A DNA stretch of 64,000 nt, taken from Acidovorax defluvii. Its GTDB lineage: Bacteria; Pseudomonadota; Gammaproteobacteria; Burkholderiales; Burkholderiaceae_C. The DNA is taken from the NCBI GenBank assembly GCA_003268905.1, contig QLTU01000023.1:1-64000 (forward strand), read 5' to 3'. The position numbers and the translations under genes were made by a program. Positions 5,955-59,966 of the stretch are shown piece by piece (positions within the stretch are counted from its first letter, which is position 1; each line of letters starts with the position of its first letter). A model generated the notes under the pieces. That model saw nothing but the letters and a program-made list of their open reading frames with translations, had not been told where the DNA came from and made no database searches.

Positions 5955-6012
5955 CACAAAAATAGCCTGTAGCGCTTATCCATCAAGCGCTGACAGCTCC
6001 TTATTTAATAGC
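5955..6012 (+). repeat. Type A AT-rich hairpin repeat, copy A1
   Basis: An AT-rich island in the 115-bp gap between the DUF58 and TgpA genes. It has the stem AGCGCTT (5971-5977) / AAGCGCT (5985-5991), then GACAGCTcc and an AT tract ending TAATAGC. It follows the same order of blocks as the other type A copies (AATAGCC, stem, AGCTAT-like block, AATAGC). Confidence 0.8.
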
Positions 6013-6050
6013 AAATTCCCGCCCTGTGTGCGGGCGCTGCGCCTCACACC

Positions 6051-8114
6051 ATGACCCTGCGCCAGACCCTTGCCACGTTGCCACGCGACACGCGGGACAC
6101 GCTGTTCCTGCTCGTTGTGATTGCCTGGGTGATGGCGCCGCAGGTGGCCCACCTGCCCGCATGGGCCAGCCTGATGGCGGGTGCCGTGCTGCTGTGGCGC
6201 GGCTGGCTGGCCTGGAACGGTCGGCAACTGCCGGGGCGCTGGGCCGTGGCCGGGTTGCTGGCGGTGGCCGTGGCTGGCACCCTGTTCACCCACCAGACCA
6301 TTCTGGGGCGCGATGCGGGTGTCACGCTCATCGTGATGCTGCTGGCGCTCAAGACGCTGGAAGTGCGCGCGCGGCGCGATGCCATGGTGGTGTTCTTCCT
6401 GGGCTTCTTCACGATGCTCAGCAACTTCTTTTTCTCGCAATCGCTGCCCACCGCCGTGGCCATGCTGGTGGCGCTGCTCGGGCTGCTTACGGCGCTGGTC
6501 AACGCCCACATGCCGGTGGGGCGCCCGCCGCTGGCGCATGCGTTTCGCCTGGCCGGCACCATGGCACTGCTGGGGGCGCCCATCATGGCGGCGCTGTTTT
6601 TGCTGTTTCCGCGCATGGCCCCGCTGTGGGGCATGCCCAGCGACACCATGGCGGGGCGTAGCGGGCTGTCAGGGGTGATGAAGGTGGGCAACATCGCCGA
6701 GCTGGCGCTGGACGACAGCGTGGCAATGCGCGTGCGCTTCGACACCCCCGGCGGTGCCCCGCCGCCGCAGAGCGACCTGTATTTTCGGGGACCGGTGTTT
6801 GCCACCTTTGACGGTAGCGAATGGCACCCTTTGTCGTACCGCGCGGGCAACCGCGCGCTGGAGCGCCCCAACAGCCCCGCCCAGCTGCAAGTGGAGGGCG
6901 CGCCCCTGCGCTACGAAGTGACGCTGGAGCCCCACAAGCGCCCCTGGCTGCTGGTGCTGGACGCCGTGCGTGACAAGCCAAGCGTGGCTGGCATGGGTGC
7001 CTTCATGACGGACGACCTGCAGTGGCTCACCAGCCGCCCGATCACCGACGTGACGCGCTACCAGGCGACAAGCTACCCGCAGTTTCGCCACGGCCCCGAC
7101 ACCCCCACTCCCGCGCTGCGCGCCTACACCGAGCTGCCCCCTGGCTTCAACCCGCGCACGCTGGCGCTGGCCCAGGAGCTGCGCAGCGACCCGCGTTTTG
7201 CCTCCGACTCGGCTCCCGACACGGCCCGCGACGCCACGCCCGCGCTGGTCAACGCCGCGCTCACGCGCCTGCGCACCGGCGGCTACCGCTACACCCTGGA
7301 GCCCGGCGTGTACGGCCAGCACACGGCGGACGAGTTCTGGTTTGACCGCAAGGAAGGTTTTTGCGAGCACATTGCCTCGGCCTTTGTGGTGCTGATGCGC
7401 GCCATGGACGTGCCCGCACGCATCGTCACCGGCTACCAGGGCGGCGATCGCAACACCGTGGACGGCTACTGGACGGTGCGCCAGAGCGACGCCCACGCCT
7501 GGGCCGAAGTGTGGATGGCCGGGCGCGGCTGGGTGCGCGTGGACCCCACCAGCGCGGTGGCGCCCGGGCGCACCGGCGCCTTTGAGCGCCTGCAGGCGCC
7601 GCGCGGCGCCCTGGCCACCGCCATGGGCACCGTGATGAGCCCCGGCATGGCGCAAAACCTGCGCGCCATGTGGGAGGCCGTGAACAACGGCTGGAACCAG
7701 TGGGTGCTGAACTACACGCAAAGCCGCCAGCTCGACCTGCTCAAGGCGCTGGGGTTTGAATCGCCCAGCTGGCAAGACCTCACCACTGTGCTGGGCGCGC
7801 TGGTGGGGCTGGCCGCGCTGGGCGGTGCCGGCTGGACGCTGTGGGAGCGCAGCCAGCACGACCCCTGGCTGCGCCTGCTGGCCCGCGCCCGCCAGCGCCT
7901 GACCAAAAGCGGGTTGCCCCTGCCCGACACCCTGCCTCCCCGCGCCATGGCCGAGCGGGTGCAGGCACAATTTGGCGATTCCGCGCAGGGCGTGGCCAAC
8001 TGGCTGCTGCGGCTGGAGCAACTGCGCTATGCCGCCCACCCTGCCCACCAACTCGGCGCCCTGCGCCGCGAGTTCCGAACCCTTTCCTGGCCCGCCGCCC
8101 CCGCGCGCCGATGA
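6051..8114 (+). CDS. TgpA-like transmembrane transglutaminase-fold protein (DUF3488)
   Basis: The product is 687 aa. About five or six membrane helices fill residues 15-190, an extracytoplasmic region follows, then a transglutaminase-like core with the Cys-His-Asp triad C438 (KEGFCEHIASAF), H482 (DAHAWAEVW) and D498 (VDPTSAV). One further membrane helix lies near residues 580-605 with a short cytoplasmic tail. TgpA of Pseudomonas is the named relative; its periplasmic domain has been linked to growth and cell envelope function, but its substrate is unclear. This gene completes the MoxR-DUF58-transglutaminase operon. It is followed after 10 bp by a murein transglycosylase gene, which supports an envelope role. 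Confidence 0.9.
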   Translation: MTLRQTLATLPRDTRDTLFLLVVIAWVMAPQVAHLPAWASLMAGAVLLWRGWLAWNGRQLPGRWAVAGLLAVAVAGTLFTHQTILGRDAGVTLIVMLLALKTLEVRARRDAMVVFFLGFFTMLSNFFFSQSLPTAVAMLVALLGLLTALVNAHMPVGRPPLAHAFRLAGTMALLGAPIMAALFLLFPRMAPLWGMPSDTMAGRSGLSGVMKVGNIAELALDDSVAMRVRFDTPGGAPPPQSDLYFRGPVFATFDGSEWHPLSYRAGNRALERPNSPAQLQVEGAPLRYEVTLEPHKRPWLLVLDAVRDKPSVAGMGAFMTDDLQWLTSRPITDVTRYQATSYPQFRHGPDTPTPALRAYTELPPGFNPRTLALAQELRSDPRFASDSAPDTARDATPALVNAALTRLRTGGYRYTLEPGVYGQHTADEFWFDRKEGFCEHIASAFVVLMRAMDVPARIVTGYQGGDRNTVDGYWTVRQSDAHAWAEVWMAGRGWVRVDPTSAVAPGRTGAFERLQAPRGALATAMGTVMSPGMAQNLRAMWEAVNNGWNQWVLNYTQSRQLDLLKALGFESPSWQDLTTVLGALVGLAALGGAGWTLWERSQHDPWLRLLARARQRLTKSGLPLPDTLPPRAMAERVQAQFGDSAQGVANWLLRLEQLRYAAHPAHQLGALRREFRTLSWPAAPARR

Positions 8115-8124
8115 GCCCACCGAC

Positions 8125-9225
8125 ATGCTGAAAACCGTATCAACCGCTATATTATTAATAGCTGCTTGCGCAATACCCATAAGCGCTAGCGCCCAAAAAA
8201 ACCAAAATTCTGGCAAAACCCAGGCTGCCGCCACCGCCCGCAGCACCGCAGCGAACGGCAGCACCGTCTACGCCACGCGCCCCGAGGCGCTGCAATTTGC
8301 CGACGACCTGGCACAGCGCCGCGACCTGGACCGCGAATGGGTGCGCCAAGCCATTGGGCAGGCGCGCTTTTTGCCCCAGGTGCCCAAGCTCATGCTGCCG
8401 CCGCCCAAGGGCACGGCCAAGAACTGGCGGGTGTACCGCAGCCGCTTCATCGACCCGGTGCGCATCCGCGCGGGCCTGCGCTTTTGGCAGGACAACGCCG
8501 ACACGCTGGCGCGTGCCGAAAGCGAATTTGGCGTGCCCGCGCAAACCATCGTGGGCATCATCGGCGTGGAAACCATCTACGGTCAGCAGATGGGCAACTT
8601 CCGGGTGATGGACGCGCTGGCCACCCTGGCCTTTGATTTTCCTGCCGCACACCCGCGCGCCGCCGAACGCACCGAGTTCTTCAAGCGCGAGCTGGAGCAG
8701 TTTTTAAGCCTCACGCACCGCACCAACGTCGATCCGTTCGAGCCACGCGGCAGCTACGCCGGTGCCATGGGACTGGGTCAGTTCATGCCCTCCAGCTGGG
8801 TGCGCCACGCCATTGATTTCGACGGCGACGGCAGCGTGGACCTGTTCAACAGCCCTGCCGACGCCATTGGCTCGGTGGCCAATTACTTCATCGCCCACGG
8901 CTGGACGCCGGGCATGCCCACGCATTACGCCGTACAGTTCGACCCCGATCCCGCCCGCGTGCAGCTCGACGAGCTGCTGGCCCCCGACATCCTGCCCAGC
9001 TTCAGCGCCGCCAGCATGCAGGCCAAGGGCGCCTTGCTCGATGCCACGGCCGCGCAACATGCCGGGCCACTGGCGCTGGTCGAACTGCAAAACGGCGGCG
9101 CAGCGCCAAGCTATGTGGCCGGCACCGAGAATTTCTACGCCATCACGCGCTACAACTGGTCGAGCTACTACGCGATGGCCGTGATCGAGCTGGGGCGGGA
9201 GGTGGCGGCGGCACGCCGGCCGTAA
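8125..9225 (+). CDS. Lytic murein transglycosylase, MltB family
   Basis: From the ATG at 8125 the product is 366 aa. An N-terminal signal peptide with a hydrophobic core (ILLIAACAIPI) ends in a signal peptidase I type site SASA|Q near residue 23. The MltB/SLT fold follows: IVGIIGVETIYGQQMG contains the catalytic glutamate E149, and GSYAGAMGLGQFMPSSW is the conserved goose-lysozyme-like segment. The enzyme should cleave the MurNAc-GlcNAc bond in peptidoglycan with formation of 1,6-anhydroMurNAc. No lipobox fits the true cleavage site, although a Cys lies at position 15. The signal peptide from residue 8 onward is encoded by a type A dispersed repeat, unlike the surrounding GC-rich coding sequence. 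Confidence 0.9.
   Translation: MLKTVSTAILLIAACAIPISASAQKNQNSGKTQAAATARSTAANGSTVYATRPEALQFADDLAQRRDLDREWVRQAIGQARFLPQVPKLMLPPPKGTAKNWRVYRSRFIDPVRIRAGLRFWQDNADTLARAESEFGVPAQTIVGIIGVETIYGQQMGNFRVMDALATLAFDFPAAHPRAAERTEFFKRELEQFLSLTHRTNVDPFEPRGSYAGAMGLGQFMPSSWVRHAIDFDGDGSVDLFNSPADAIGSVANYFIAHGWTPGMPTHYAVQFDPDPARVQLDELLAPDILPSFSAASMQAKGALLDATAAQHAGPLALVELQNGGAAPSYVAGTENFYAITRYNWSSYYAMAVIELGREVAAARRP
8146..8202 (-). repeat. Type A repeat, copy A2, inside the mltB-like signal peptide
   Basis: Read on the minus strand this AT-rich stretch has the type A order: GGCGCTAGCGCTTAT, an AAGCAGCTATTAATAATATAGC-like right half, ending in AT tracts. On the plus strand it is translated in frame as residues 8-26 of the transglycosylase. 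The left arm is kept but the right arm is degenerate, so only a partial hairpin remains. Confidence 0.75.
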
Positions 9226-11680: not shown

Positions 11681-11826
11681 TTGCACAACCCCATGCAGGG
11701 GCCAGCGCCGATGTGGCCCTGCACCAATACAAGAACACTGGCCGCAACCGCGTGTGCGTGGCGGGCGAAACGCCTTCAATGGCGGCACCACACAGGCTGA
11801 CAGCGCCAGCCATACAAATTTGATGC

Positions 11827-11884
11827 CAAATATGGCCTTAGCCCTTGCATAGCAAGCGCTAACAGCTATTATTACAATAGCAAA
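11827..11884 (+). repeat. Type A repeat, copy A3
   Basis: AT-rich block with TATGGCCTTAGCcCTTgcat, the right arm AAGCGCT, then AACAGCTATTATTACAATAGC. One base of the left arm differs from the family (AGCCCTT for AGCGCTT), weakening the stem. Confidence 0.8.
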
Positions 11885-33073: not shown

Positions 33074-34018
33074 ATGGTCAGTGCCGTATTTCATGCCCCG
33101 CTGGATACCGCCCCTGCAGCAACGCAAGACGCTATTAATAATATAGCTACCAGCGCTTTACCCACGGGCGCTACAACCCAAAAACACTCAAAAAACACAC
33201 CCACCAAGGCCCCGGCAGACCGGGACTGGGCTGCCAGTTTCCGCAGCTTCTGGCTGGCGGTGCTGCCGCCGCTGTGCGGCCTGGGCCTGCTGCTGGGGGT
33301 GTGGGCGCTGGTTTCTGCCGGCACCGGCAACAGCATTCCCGGCCCCCGCGAAACCTGGGCACAGGCGCTGGACGTGTTCAGCAACCCGTTTTATCGCAAC
33401 GGCCCCAACGACCAGGGCGTGGGCTGGAACGTGCTGATGTCGCTCGAACGCGTCGCCGTGGGCTTTGGCCTGGCGGCGGCGGTGGGCATTCCGGCGGGCT
33501 TTGCGATTGGGCGCTTCGAGTTTTTGAGCCGCATGTTCAACCCGCTCATCAGCCTGCTGCGCCCGGTGTCGCCGCTGGCCTGGCTGCCCATTGGCCTCTT
33601 GGTATTCAAGGGCGCCAACCCGGCCGCCATCTGGACCATCTTCATCTGCTCGATCTGGCCCATGATCATCAACACCGCCGTGGGCGTGCAACGGGTGCCG
33701 CAGGACTACATGAACGTGGCCCGCGTGCTCAACCTGTCGGAATGGAAGATCTTCACCAAGATCCTGTTCCCCGCCGTGCTGCCCTACCTGCTGACCGGCG
33801 TGCGCCTGGCGGTGGGCACGGCCTGGCTGGTGATCGTGGCAGCCGAGATGCTGACCGGCGGCGTGGGCATTGGTTTTTGGGTGTGGGACGAGTGGAACAG
33901 TCTCAACGTCAAGAACATCATCATCGCCATCTTCGTGATCGGCATCGTCGGGCTGGTGCTGGAATATGCCCTCATCAAGCTCGCCAGCGCCTTCACGTTC
34001 GAAGAAGTGAAGGCTTGA
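33074..34018 (+). CDS. nrtB: Nitrate ABC transporter permease
   Basis: The 314-aa protein has a 50-residue polar N-terminal extension, then six membrane helices from LAVLPPLCGLGLLLGVWALV. The EAA-like loop (VPQDYMNVARVLNLSEWKIFTKILFPAVLPYLLTGVRLAVGTAWLVIVAAEML) is typical of NrtB/TauC/SsuC permeases. The C-terminus (GIVGLVLEYALIKLASAFTFEEVKA) also matches NrtB. Residues 20-36 of the N-terminal extension come from a type A repeat (A4), so this extension is probably dispensable and recently gained. Confidence 0.92.
   Translation: MVSAVFHAPLDTAPAATQDAINNIATSALPTGATTQKHSKNTPTKAPADRDWAASFRSFWLAVLPPLCGLGLLLGVWALVSAGTGNSIPGPRETWAQALDVFSNPFYRNGPNDQGVGWNVLMSLERVAVGFGLAAAVGIPAGFAIGRFEFLSRMFNPLISLLRPVSPLAWLPIGLLVFKGANPAAIWTIFICSIWPMIINTAVGVQRVPQDYMNVARVLNLSEWKIFTKILFPAVLPYLLTGVRLAVGTAWLVIVAAEMLTGGVGIGFWVWDEWNSLNVKNIIIAIFVIGIVGLVLEYALIKLASAFTFEEVKA
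33131..33190 (-). repeat. Type A repeat, copy A4, inside the nrtB N-terminus
   Basis: Read on the minus strand it has TTGTAGCGC, AAAGCGCTggTAGCTATattATTAATAGC, in family order. On the plus strand it is translated as NrtB residues 20-36 and lies in frame without a stop. AT content is clearly above that of the flanking coding sequence. Confidence 0.75.
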
Positions 34019-35610: not shown

Positions 35611-35758
35611 AAGGGACCTCGATAAAAAATGGTGGGCGAACGCCAAAGAGTTTCAACGCATCCTGCCTTGCGCGCAACACCGCCATGGCAAGGGGCCTGT
35701 TGTGTGGCAACTGGCACCACCGCAGTGCCCCATTGCGCCGCAAAACCTTTTTTTGGTC

Positions 35759-35816
35759 AAATAATGCTCTAGCGCTTATCCATAAAGCGCTGATAGCTAT
35801 TAAAAATAGAGCGAAT
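35759..35816 (+). repeat. Type A repeat, copy A5 (clean example)
   Basis: ATGCTCT, stem AGCGCTT (35771-35777)/AAGCGCT (35785-35791), then GATAGCTATTAAAAATAG. This is close to the family consensus and lies wholly in the gap upstream of the CBS gene and downstream of the YidB-like gene. Confidence 0.85.
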
Positions 35817-43534: not shown

Positions 43535-43656
43535 GACGAGCGTGTCATCAATCCTCCACAGGCCGCGAGCTTGCAAACACGCTGGAACGGCGCACGCACC
43601 AAGCTGGCCCATCCGCTTGTGCGGCTTGCACTGGCAAGGCCAACCGTTTCGTTGAC

Positions 43657-43712
43657 TGCTATTTATTTGATAGCTAATAGCGCTTGATAAATAAGCGCTA
43701 GAGCCATTTTTC
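43657..43712 (-). repeat. Type A repeat, copy A6, just upstream of the nir promoter
   Basis: Stem AGCGCTT (43679-43685)/AAGCGCT (43693-43699), extended to TAGCGCTT/AAGCGCTA, with TTTGATAGCTAA on the left and GAGCCATTTTT on the right. It ends about 28 bp before the sigma-54 element. A weak half NtrC site (GCACC-AAGCT-GGCCC) lies at 43596-43610. Confidence 0.85.
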
Positions 43713-43739
43713 ACTTAAAACCACCATCTTTTCCATCTT

Positions 43740-46365: not shown

Positions 46366-46431
46366 TTTTTTATATCAAAAGTGCCTGAAACGCTTTACCC
46401 AAAAGCGCAAGCAGCTACAAAAGGAATAGCA
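46366..46431 (+). repeat. Type A repeat, copy A7, between nirB and nirD
   Basis: The whole 70-bp nirB-nirD gap is this AT-rich element: TTTTTTATATCAAAAGTGCC, CGCTT/AAGCG stem, then CAGCTACAAAAGGAATAGC directly before the nirD ATG. The AAGGA inside it is the only plausible ribosome binding site for nirD. Confidence 0.75.
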
Positions 46432-46824
46432 ATGACCGAATGGACCTCCATCTGCCGCGTGGACGATATCCCCGTGCTGGGCTCGCGCCGCGTGGCACGC
46501 GCCCAGGGCCTGGACGTGGCCGTGTTTCGCAACACCTCGAACGAGGTGTTTGCCTTGCTCGACCGCTGCCCGCACAAGGGCGGCCCGCTGAGCCAGGGCA
46601 TCGTTTTTGGCACCAGCGTGGCCTGCCCCATGCACAACTGGACCATTGGCCTGTGCGACGGCCAGGCCGCCGCCCCTGACGAGGGCTGCACGCCCAAGTT
46701 TCAGGTGCGCGTGGAAGACGGCACCGTGCTGCTCAACACCCACGAACTGGCCCACCACGCCCTGAGCGAAACGCGCCCCATCGCAGGGCCGCAGCGGCGC
46801 GCCCCGGCCAGCCCGGCGGCGTGA
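46432..46824 (+). CDS. nirD: Nitrite reductase [NAD(P)H] small subunit
   Basis: A 130-aa Rieske-like protein: WTSICRVDDIPVLGSRRVARAQGLDVAVFRNTSNEVFALLDRCPHKGGPLSQGIVFGTSVACPMHNWTIGL. Here the Rieske ligands are present as C-P-H and C-P-M-H (CPHKGGPLS, CPMHNW), unlike E. coli NirD, which lacks them. It would thus bind a [2Fe-2S] cluster and may pass electrons within the NirB complex. The tail (ETRPIAGPQRRAPASPAA) is unstructured. Confidence 0.93.
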   Translation: MTEWTSICRVDDIPVLGSRRVARAQGLDVAVFRNTSNEVFALLDRCPHKGGPLSQGIVFGTSVACPMHNWTIGLCDGQAAAPDEGCTPKFQVRVEDGTVLLNTHELAHHALSETRPIAGPQRRAPASPAA

Positions 46825-49985: not shown

Positions 49986-50081
49986 GAGATTTGCCTTGGG
50001 AGCTGTGATGAGAAATTTCATACAAGCGATGTGGGAAACCAGCGTACTGAAGTCTGCCCTCACCACCAGCACATCGTCACT

Positions 50082-50135
50082 ATAAAAACAATAGCTACTA
50101 GCGCTTTATAAATAAGCACTAGACCTCAAAAAGAC
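50082..50135 (-). repeat. Type A repeat, copy A8, in the nasA 5' untranslated region
   Basis: AAACAATAGCTACT, stem AGCGCTT/AAGCACT, then AGACCTCAAAAAG. It lies between the attenuator and the nasA start, so it will be transcribed in the mRNA leader. One mismatch weakens the stem. Confidence 0.8.
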
Positions 50136-57094: not shown

Positions 57095-58372
57095 ATGGCG
57101 GCCCCGCTACCGCTGCCTAAAACCCCTGTGACCCTCGCTTCCCTTGTTTTTGATGTTGTCATCATCGGCGCCGGTGCCGCCGGCCTGTTCTGTGCAGGCC
57201 AGGCAGGCCAGCGCGGGTTGAAAGCCTTGCTCATCGACCACGCCGACAAGGTGGCCGAGAAGATCCGCATCTCGGGCGGTGGGCGCTGCAACTTCACCAA
57301 CCGCGACCTGGACCCCGCCGCGCCGCACAAGCACTTCGTGGGGCAAAACCCGCAGTTTTGCCGCTCGGCGCTGTCGCGCTACACACCGGCCGATTTCATT
57401 GCGCTGGTGCAAAAGCACGGCATCGCCTTTCACGAAAAACACAAGGGCCAGCTGTTTGCCGACCGCTCGGCCGAGGACATCATCGCCATGCTGCTGGCCG
57501 AATGCGCAGCCGGTGGCGTCACGCACTGGCAGCCTTGCCGGGTTAAAAATATAGCCTTTTTGGCCTCTGGCGCTTATCCAGAAAGCGCCAGCAGCTATCA
57601 AATTGATACTGACCGCGGCACGGTGCAGGCCCGCTCGGTGGTCATTGCCACGGGTGGGCTGTCGATCCCCAAGATCGGCGCGACGGACTTTGGCTACCGG
57701 CTGGCGCAGCAGTTCAATATCCCGCTGGTCGAGCGCCGCCCCGGCCTCGTGCCCCTGACGTTTGACGGCGCGGGCTGGGCGCCGTATGCGCAGCTGGCCG
57801 GACTGGCGCTGCCGGTGCAGATCAGCACCGGCGCCAAGAGGTCCCGCATGGCGTTTGACGAAGACCTGCTGTTCACCCACCGCGGCCTGTCGGGCCCGGC
57901 GGTGCTGCAGATATCCAGCTACTGGCAAGAGGGCACGCCGCTGGCCATCAACCTGGCGCCCACGGTGGACCTGCCCGCCGCGCTGGCGCAGGCCAAGGCG
58001 CGATCGCGCAAACTCATCGCCAACGAGCTGGCCACACTGGTGCCAAGCCGCCTGGCCGACACCTGGGCCCAGCGCGAGGCCGACTGGCAACGCCCCATCA
58101 ACGAGGCCACCGACAAGGCCATGGCCCGGCTGGCCGAGCAACTGGCACGCTGGGAGCTCACCCCCACCGGCACCGAGGGCTACAAGAAGGCCGAAGTCAC
58201 GTTGGGTGGCATCGACACCCGCGCGCTCTCGCAGCAGACGATGGAGTGCAAAACCCAGCCCGGGCTGTACTTCATTGGTGAGGTGGTGGATGTGACGGGC
58301 TGGCTGGGCGGCTACAACTTTCAGTGGGCCTGGGCCAGTGCACATGCTTGCGCCCAAGCGCTGCCTGCTTGA
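57095..58372 (+). CDS. NAD(P)/FAD-dependent oxidoreductase, HI0933/YhiN family
   Basis: A 425-aa flavoprotein: the FAD-binding VVIIGAGAAGLFCAGQAGQRGLKALLIDHADKVAEKIRISGGGRCNFTN is the hallmark of the HI0933 (TIGR00275) family, and GLSGPAVLQISSYW plus VDVTGWLGGYNFQWAWASAHACAQAL complete it. Its reaction is unknown. Residues ~151-172 (KNIAFLASGAYPESASSYQIDTD) are encoded by type A repeat A9; this stretch lies in a loop between domains. Alternative start GTG near 57128 would drop 11 residues. Confidence 0.92.
   Translation: MAAPLPLPKTPVTLASLVFDVVIIGAGAAGLFCAGQAGQRGLKALLIDHADKVAEKIRISGGGRCNFTNRDLDPAAPHKHFVGQNPQFCRSALSRYTPADFIALVQKHGIAFHEKHKGQLFADRSAEDIIAMLLAECAAGGVTHWQPCRVKNIAFLASGAYPESASSYQIDTDRGTVQARSVVIATGGLSIPKIGATDFGYRLAQQFNIPLVERRPGLVPLTFDGAGWAPYAQLAGLALPVQISTGAKRSRMAFDEDLLFTHRGLSGPAVLQISSYWQEGTPLAINLAPTVDLPAALAQAKARSRKLIANELATLVPSRLADTWAQREADWQRPINEATDKAMARLAEQLARWELTPTGTEGYKKAEVTLGGIDTRALSQQTMECKTQPGLYFIGEVVDVTGWLGGYNFQWAWASAHACAQALPA
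57547..57609 (+). repeat. Type A repeat, copy A9, inside the HI0933-type gene
   Basis: AAAAATATAGCC, TGGCCTCTGGCGCTTATCC, then AAGCGCCAG and CAGCTATCAAATTGATA. The stem CTGGCGCTT (57567-57575)/AAGCGCCAG (57583-57591) is perfect over 9 bp; where other copies have A-T pairs this one has G-C pairs on both sides. Translated in frame. Confidence 0.8.
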
Positions 58373-59388: not shown

Positions 59389-59437
59389 AAGATAGAGAGC
59401 GCCCCCAGCTGACCACGCAACGGTCAGTATTATTTTG

Positions 59438-59481
59438 ATAGCTGCCAGCGCTTGATAAACAAGCGCTGGCAGCTATTTTTG
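59438..59481 (+). terminator. Type A repeat, copy A10: perfect 17-bp hairpin ending in Ts, terminator of yqeY
   Basis: ATAGCTGCCAGCGCTTG (59438-59454) pairs perfectly with CAAGCGCTGGCAGCTAT (59460-59476) around ATAAA, then TTTTTGCTTTT follows. It is a type A repeat in which the stem has been extended through the AGCTAT block on both sides. It ends 88 bp after yqeY and should stop transcription efficiently. Confidence 0.85.
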
Positions 59482-59791
59482 CTTTTATTTCGCGGGCCCT
59501 GCAGCGCCAGCGCTGCCGCAGTCTGCGGACGCCATCAAGACGGCGGCACACGCCGGATCAGGGGCACGGCCAATACCACGGAGGTTGGAGCGGCGATGAC
59601 GGGGGCAGGCAAGGTCGAAGCGTTGGTATGTGTCGGCGGACCAGGCCGAGCAGCCCATTGCCCGCGTGGTGCGCATGCATGACCGGGTGCGTGGCACGAT
59701 GCCGGGGTAGCCCAGCAACCTCCAAGAGCACAGCTTCGATTTCAAGCCAAATAGCCTGACTATGTACATACCTCAGGCCTCTGTCTCCAAT

Positions 59792-59863: not shown

Positions 59864-59890
59864 GTCTATCTGAGGAAAATATCCAATCAG

Positions 59891-59945
59891 GCCAAACAGG
59901 CCTCTAGCGCTCATATAGCAAGCGCTGACAGCTATCAAAACAAAA
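59891..59945 (+). repeat. Type A repeat, copy A11
   Basis: AGGCCAAACAGGCCTCT, stem AGCGCT(c)/(c)AAGCGCT, then GACAGCTATCAAAACAAAAG. It runs directly into the terminator at 59941-59966. Confidence 0.82.
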
Positions 59946-59966
59946 GCAGCCCAAAGGCTGCTTTTG
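59941..59966. terminator. Bidirectional Rho-independent terminator before pmbA
   Basis: CAAAAGCAGCC (59941-59951) pairs perfectly with GGCTGCTTTTG (59956-59966) around CAAA. The A and T runs on both sides allow termination in both directions, ending pmbA from the right and any read-through from the left. Confidence 0.9.

Follow-up and report, generated by a model that had tools for sequence, protein, structure and literature searches.

A dispersed repeat of about 55 bp, which can be read as a hydrophobic peptide ending in small residues, has very probably come to encode the core of the Sec signal peptide of the murein transglycosylase MltB in Acidovorax defluvii, and likewise the signals of a CopI-like cupredoxin and a TupA-like binding protein. 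The copy in mltB matches the repeat in frame and down to the choice of synonymous codons, it is conserved across the genus, two more genes carry repeat-encoded signals, and different signals are found in repeat-less genomes. Members of all three product families act outside the cytoplasm. In the following, the window denotes the whole stretch of 64 kb of A. defluvii DNA that was analysed.

The repeat family and its copy in mltB

The repeat was modelled by an HMM built from copies in the window and in 800 kb of the same genome (together the 864-kb sample), and the mltB copy formed no part of the seeds or of the final model. The element is AT-rich and palindromic, is dispersed on the chromosome and has the consensus AATTGCTATTAAATTAATAGCTGCTAGCGCTTGATGGATAAGCGCTAGAGGCCAATTTGACTTA. 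We obtained 157 non-redundant copies at E < 1e-3 in the 864-kb sample and 11 non-redundant copies in the window (Table 1), while the reversed 864-kb sample yielded no match of 15 bits or more, the best one reaching 8.4 bits. When both strands of the 4.11-Mb genome were searched for the core pattern ATAGCTGCTAGCGCT with up to two mismatches, 466 matches were obtained, some copies being counted on both strands, vs. 4 for the reversed pattern. A simple, purpose-made gene caller placed 118 of the 157 copies between genes, 29 entirely within called genes, where both orientations occur, and 10 at gene ends; a further 400 kb contained 69 copies, of which 43 are intergenic, 17 are inside genes and 9 are at gene edges. 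Of the 157 copies, 98 have no stop codon in the frame that mltB uses.

The repeat consensus folds into two hairpins (−19.5 kcal/mol, z −2.5). Because the paired positions showed no covariation beyond shuffled controls (196 of 500 shuffles were as high as the 48 repeat copies analysed), an RNA structure of the repeat is not supported, and we rejected an RNA-hairpin constraint. One copy (59422–59485) departs from the usual form with two hairpins and has an extended perfect hairpin of −34.1 kcal/mol (z −7.8). A comparison of the window with Rfam gave 0 matches at the gathering score. The repeat was present in 1 of 72,556 plasmid records and 0 of 50,697 phage records and therefore does not seem to be carried by such elements.

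The gene carrying the copy of interest was identified as mltB by its match to TIGR02282 (323.7 bits vs. an equivalog cut-off of 281.4, E = 9.1e-97), and the product also contains the SLT_2 domain. Its repeat copy scores 44.8 bits (E = 6.4e-12 in the 864-kb sample), spans model positions 4–57 of about 64 and covers codons 8–25, thereby encoding the hydrophobic core and the A-x-A end of the signal peptide; ILLIAACAIPISASA corresponds to codons 9–23. The preliminary description had assigned the hydrophobic core and the cleavage region to a repeat lying in frame from codon 8 to codon 26; these codons indeed occupy positions 8146–8202, and the match to a model that does not contain this copy bears out the assignment. 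Read by eye, the N-terminus shows the features of a Sec type I signal, namely a positive n-region, a hydrophobic h-region and a small-x-small c-region. Among the 34 repeat-type MltB orthologues, position 8 of the block is S or G in 33, position 9 is A in 33, and both apply in 32. The AT-rich block was further said to stand where GC-rich codons are normal, which is also correct: in the same 34 orthologues, GC3 is 0.33 in the block vs. 0.87 over the 60 aligned codons at the start of the mature part, and it is 0.73 in 121 repeat-free, signal-like N-termini of the genome sample.

We propose that in an ancestor within the Comamonadaceae one repeat copy came to sit at the 5′ end of mltB, where it may have arrived either by insertion or by copy-in replacement. 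One sense frame of the repeat encodes a hydrophobic stretch with a small-residue end, roughly A-I-x-L-I-A-A-[SC]-A-x-P-x-S-A, and the ribosome would read it as part of mltB, with the n-region MLKT coming from the gene and the h-region and A-x-A end from the repeat (AILLIAACAIPISASA). The product would then be exported via Sec and cleaved by signal peptidase I, and the repeat-encoded peptide presumably works as an export signal. The same recruitment would have occurred at the copI-like gene, in the same frame, and at the tupA-like gene, on the opposite strand.

Table 1. Coordinates of mltB, its N-terminal features and the repeat copies in the window
Feature	Position	Strand	Basis or remark
Repeat copy upstream of TgpA-type ORF	5957..6014	-	
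TgpA/transglutaminase-core gene upstream of mltB	6051..8114	+	separated from mltB by 10 nt
Gene for an mltB-type lytic murein transglycosylase (366 aa)	8125..9225	+	TIGR02282, PF13406
Predicted signal peptide MLKTVSTAILLIAACAIPISASA, codons 1-23	8125..8193	+	n-, h- and c-regions read by eye from the translation
Full-length palindromic repeat copy, in frame within the mltB signal peptide	8145..8198	+	HMM and synonymous nulls
LIAAC, possible lipobox within the repeat	8155..8169	+	rival type II cleavage
Repeat copy	11825..11883	-	
Repeat copy coding for the extended N-terminus of a nitrate ABC permease (NtrB type)	33129..33188	+	ORF 33074-34018
Repeat copy	35755..35814	-	
Repeat copy	43656..43716	+	
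Weaker repeat copy	46374..46433	-	at 5′ end of a + strand gene
Repeat copy	50077..50129	+	
Repeat copy wholly inside, and in frame with, a FAD-binding protein ORF	57553..57608	-	ORF 57128-58372 (+)
Repeat copy with extended perfect hairpin	59427..59483	+	
Repeat copy	59890..59948	-	

Orthologues and other genes with repeat-encoded N-termini

Orthologues of MltB from 74 genomes, namely 46 congeners and 28 genomes of other genera, were scored at their N-termini with cut-offs of 15 bits for the block and 30 matches for a repeat-bearing genome, both of which were picked after the scores had been seen. The block reached at least 15 bits in 34 of the 46 congeners (34/41 repeat-bearing and 0/5 repeat-poor ones) and in 9 of the 28 other genomes (7/13 repeat-bearing, 2/15 repeat-poor), leaving seven repeat-bearing congeners below the cut-off. 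Two genomes of other genera (G086, G116) contain the block despite core-pattern counts near the control level. In a survey of named records covering the best 80 of 569 relatives, the block was found in Simplicispira, Giesbergeria, Alicycliphilus, Comamonas granuli and Polaromonas and was absent from five of six Variovorax-titled records, both Pseudorhodoferax records and one Xylophilus record; the sixth Variovorax-titled record, a MAG, scored 23.2 bits.

The preliminary description had expected orthologues lacking the block to possess a different signal peptide if the repeat had been recruited, and many of them do carry a different, GC-rich one. It had also regarded the same codons in orthologues with no repeat nearby as speaking against recruitment; this situation does exist in form, but not in substance, because the codons are the same by way of the same repeat copy. 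In a tree of MltB plus TupA, calculated by a quick method that left 33 of 72 inner branches weak, four repeat-poor Acidovorax genomes come out together as one clade within repeat-rich lineages, and a tree-aware test of repeat load vs. MltB block was not significant: well-supported branches provided 2 pairs, and the median p was 1. Because the tree shows few independent changes, the fact that repeat-poor genomes have GC-rich signals is not taken here as statistical proof of recruitment. The genomes of this clade (G013, G016, G020 and G044; 6.8–7.5 Mb) contain 8–9 core-pattern matches, which equals the control level, while their relatives bear hundreds; the clade either lost the repeat or never had it.

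Screening the 864-kb sample for repeat copies at gene starts yielded ten open N-termini including that of MltB, three of which are doubtful by eye. Besides MltB, clear signal peptides were found in the CopI-like cupredoxin, whose signal consists almost entirely of repeat in the same frame as in mltB, and in the TupA-like binding protein, whose signal is encoded by the opposite strand of the repeat; both are called “like” because their family matches lie below the equivalog cut-offs. For the TupA-like signal, 32 of the 39 genomes scored reached at least 15 bits (32/34 repeat-bearing and 0/5 repeat-poor; 45 genomes had a match, six of them unscored), and for the CopI-like signal 33 of 41 did so (33/36 and 0/5, respectively). 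For either gene, the five repeat-poor genomes scored have GC-rich signals instead. The repeat also provides N-terminal extensions of the NtrB-type permease and of an ABC ATPase, the latter family being assigned by eye, whereas the NtrB-type, NodT-type, TupA-like and CopI-like assignments come from family matches. In a NodT-type outer membrane factor (L140:3757-5217, minus strand), the repeat lies in the n-region, in another sense frame, before a lipobox-like LLTAC.

No additional clear repeat-encoded signal peptide was found among the 69 copies of the further 400 kb. Three or four copies are centred in signal-coding DNA vs. 1.7 of 157 expected by uniform placement, which is too few to show targeting of the repeat to such DNA; the crude signal rule applied missed MltB and CopI, and its counts are lower bounds.

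Upkeep, export route and origin of the block

The way in which the block is kept is the point at which an alternative fares best. The chances are nearly even that it is a slowly decaying relic under selection at the protein level only, with no constraint on the DNA. Such a relic would agree with the decayed MltB block in some repeat-rich genomes (G018, G019, G030 and G038), with the missing excess of RNA-pair covariation over shuffles and with the codon identity of same-residue pairs, which is no higher in the block than elsewhere in either gene analysed: the values are 0.68 in the MltB block vs. 0.74 in the mature part, and 0.73 in the block of the FAD gene vs. 0.75 upstream and 0.67 downstream. 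The decayed blocks and the identity values count against a DNA constraint or strict concerted evolution, although codon bias may hold the GC-rich codons outside the block and so blur the identity comparison.

On the other side, isoleucine is encoded by ATA in 72 of 86 cases in the MltB block of the 34 genomes vs. 0 of 61 over 60 aligned codons of the mature part, and one block codon is ATA in all 34 genomes; this set contains only genomes of at least 15 bits, which favours repeat-like codons, inflates the ATA figure and partly accounts for the invariant codon. The ATA share of isoleucine codons is 2.2% in long ORFs and 4/148 in other signal-like N-termini of the genome. In the gene for the HI0933/TIGR00275-type FAD-binding protein, the repeat copy (57553–57608) encodes a loop with the codons AGC TAT invariant in 30 Acidovorax genomes, and of 12 conserved columns in the block, 4 are fixed for A/T-ending codons (at least 90% of the 30 genomes), vs. 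3 of 98 columns in the flanks. The upkeep of ATA and the fixed codons of the FAD gene are hints of a constraint on the repeat DNA, or of its copying, and either process may help to keep the AT-rich codons in place. A wider generalisation, to which we give a rather low probability, would be that the repeat is kept as DNA by factor binding or inter-repeat copying and carries a ready-made export signal that was repeatedly recruited by core exported proteins of a bacterial family, so that some signals would be doubly constrained, by export and by the repeat DNA.

E. coli MltB is a lipoprotein, and the I-A-A-C in the N-terminus of the A. defluvii protein fits the lipobox pattern. The LIAAC encoded by the repeat may thus represent a lipobox, in which case the A-x-A end would be irrelevant; we consider this possible but doubtful. 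The Cys is present in 27 of the 34 repeat-type orthologues and is replaced by S, T, W or F in the other seven, while 33 of the 34 retain the final A (position 9). Because seven orthologues lack the Cys, the case for lipidation is weakened compared with the Sec type I signal proposed here.

It is somewhat less probable still, and in our judgement unlikely, that the signal peptide predates the repeat and that repeat copies later reshaped its DNA, either by conversion or through selection for resemblance to them, in which case the repeat would not have supplied the export signal. A clean empty site was not found in any of the four genes for which repeat-less orthologues were compared (MltB, TupA-like, CopI-like and the FAD gene), and therefore an insertion is inferred; these orthologues are of roughly equal length, with no additive insertion visible. 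In Acidovorax, the FAD-protein loop has 84 nt in 40 of 40 repeat-bearing genomes (including G021 and G006, which score below 15 bits at the FAD copy) and 75–78 nt in four repeat-poor ones, while in other genera it has 84 nt in ten repeat-bearing and 60–93 nt in fourteen repeat-poor genomes. Accordingly, the event was either old and trimmed afterwards, or the repeat replaced existing sequence. An older signal is favoured by the similar length of the signals kept in repeat-less orthologues, by some shared peptide letters (ACALPALAS in L065 vs. ACAIPISAS) and by F and SY at the edges of the FAD repeat, which also occur in some repeat-poor genomes. This is countered by the unrelated signal letters in many repeat-poor orthologues, and the nested clade of four repeat-poor Acidovorax genomes fits a later loss with GC drift as well.

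A chance resemblance or convergence, in which AT-rich, non-optimal codons at 5′ ends or in signal peptides merely look like the repeat, is very improbable and largely refuted by synonymous nulls, in which the 50 N-terminal mltB codons were recoded in 1000 trials of each kind. None of the 1000 recodings by genome codon usage reached 44.8 bits (maximum 16.3), nor did any of the 1000 uniform recodings (maximum 22.9), whereas when the existing synonymous codons of the gene were permuted, 1 trial in 1000 did (45.0 bits). Because recodings fail to match the score, the nucleotides of the mltB block represent the repeat itself, beyond a similar peptide. The single permutation and the somewhat lower GC3 of signal-like N-termini compared with mature MltB codons (0.73 vs. 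0.87) leave some room for convergence; against it stand the other two nulls, the low scores in the reversed genome sample, the extent of the match, which includes the non-hydrophobic end of the model, and the opposite strand used in the tupA-like signal. The TupA-like and CopI-like copies of the A. defluvii genome outscored 1000 of 1000 recodings of each of the three kinds, with the restriction that they may be part of the repeat model, unlike the mltB copy.

Finally, a mobile repeat that had recently entered mltB of this A. defluvii strain alone would agree with a copy score within the range of the other copies in the window, but this is refuted by the block, which occupies the same mltB position in the majority of the congeners scored and also in several genera. 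On the same grounds, a recent or locus-specific insertion of any kind is not supported.

Relation to known repeats

As a DNA motif, the repeat has been seen before: an unnamed motif, GCTTAT(N)5AAGCG, was described from Acidovorax ebreus TPSY with 114 copies, 107 of them intergenic and 5 in genes (PMC5217627). It is the same repeat as in A. defluvii: 52 of the 53 matches to this pattern in our 864-kb sample fall within repeat copies. The accessible text of this section contains no element model, coding role or signal peptide, unlike the present analysis. The Polaromonas motif of the same section, ATAGCT(N)22CAAAAG, gave 0 matches in the 864-kb sample (PMC5217627). A repeat-derived signal has been proposed once in Yersinia, for YPO1552 and the element RU-2/YPAL; in the accessible parts of these sources the element has 168 bp and concerns one putative exported protein (PMC2759123, PMC2229807), whereas the Acidovorax repeat involves three unrelated exported families, both strands and genus-wide occurrence and was analysed with synonymous nulls and an orthologue comparison. 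What was already known from the accessible texts is therefore the repeat as an unnamed A. ebreus motif and the idea of a repeat-derived signal in Yersinia; new is that such signals recur in several genes and are old and conserved, in which their interest lies. Our literature search, to which most subscription papers were outside scope, revealed no paper on the Acidovorax repeat as a source of signal peptides.

The Rickettsia palindromic elements (RPE) are likewise small, palindromic and in frame inside protein genes, as are the 29 of 157 copies found wholly inside called genes here. As far as the consulted text goes, RPE measure 105–146 bp (PMC2229807), vs. about 55 bp for the Acidovorax repeat, for which no additive insert could be demonstrated by comparison with repeat-less orthologues; at the FAD gene, the one gene considered in this respect, no RPE-like extra segment was found. 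Beta-proteobacterial repeat elements (BRE) are also dispersed, partly intragenic and found in Comamonadaceae, and the two Acidovorax listed in the consulted part of the source have 1 and 4 copies (PMC3110155). An identity with BRE was rejected, as these are given there as 75–91 bp long with about 69% GC in Bordetella, vs. an AT-rich element of about 55 bp (PMC3110155). The repeat resembles MITE/REP-like elements in its many dispersed, mostly intergenic copies and in inverted repeats able to form hairpins, but its stems are not kept by compensatory change (48 copies).

With three unrelated exported proteins and two strands within one genus, the repeat is a natural and replicated example of largely non-coding repeat DNA becoming part of a protein in bacteria. 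It makes the origin and replacement of signal peptides testable, as well as the persistence of rare codons in a few signal peptides of GC-rich bacteria, and an abundant, unnamed repeat gains a concrete phenotype for testing.

A RAYT-type transposase was considered as mobiliser of the repeat and dropped as not discriminating, since the Y1 transposase family PF01797 occurs in 44 of 47 genomes, including repeat-poor ones. Repeats were found near a Y1 transposase gene in 4 of 20 regions, while in 6 of the 20 the picked ORF does not look like a transposase; in these four regions (L358 at 641–694, L360, L362 and L369), the repeat abuts the 3′ end of the Y1-transposase-like gene. Genome G046 contains 37 PF01797 matches, most of them of equal score, which looks like an expanded insertion sequence.
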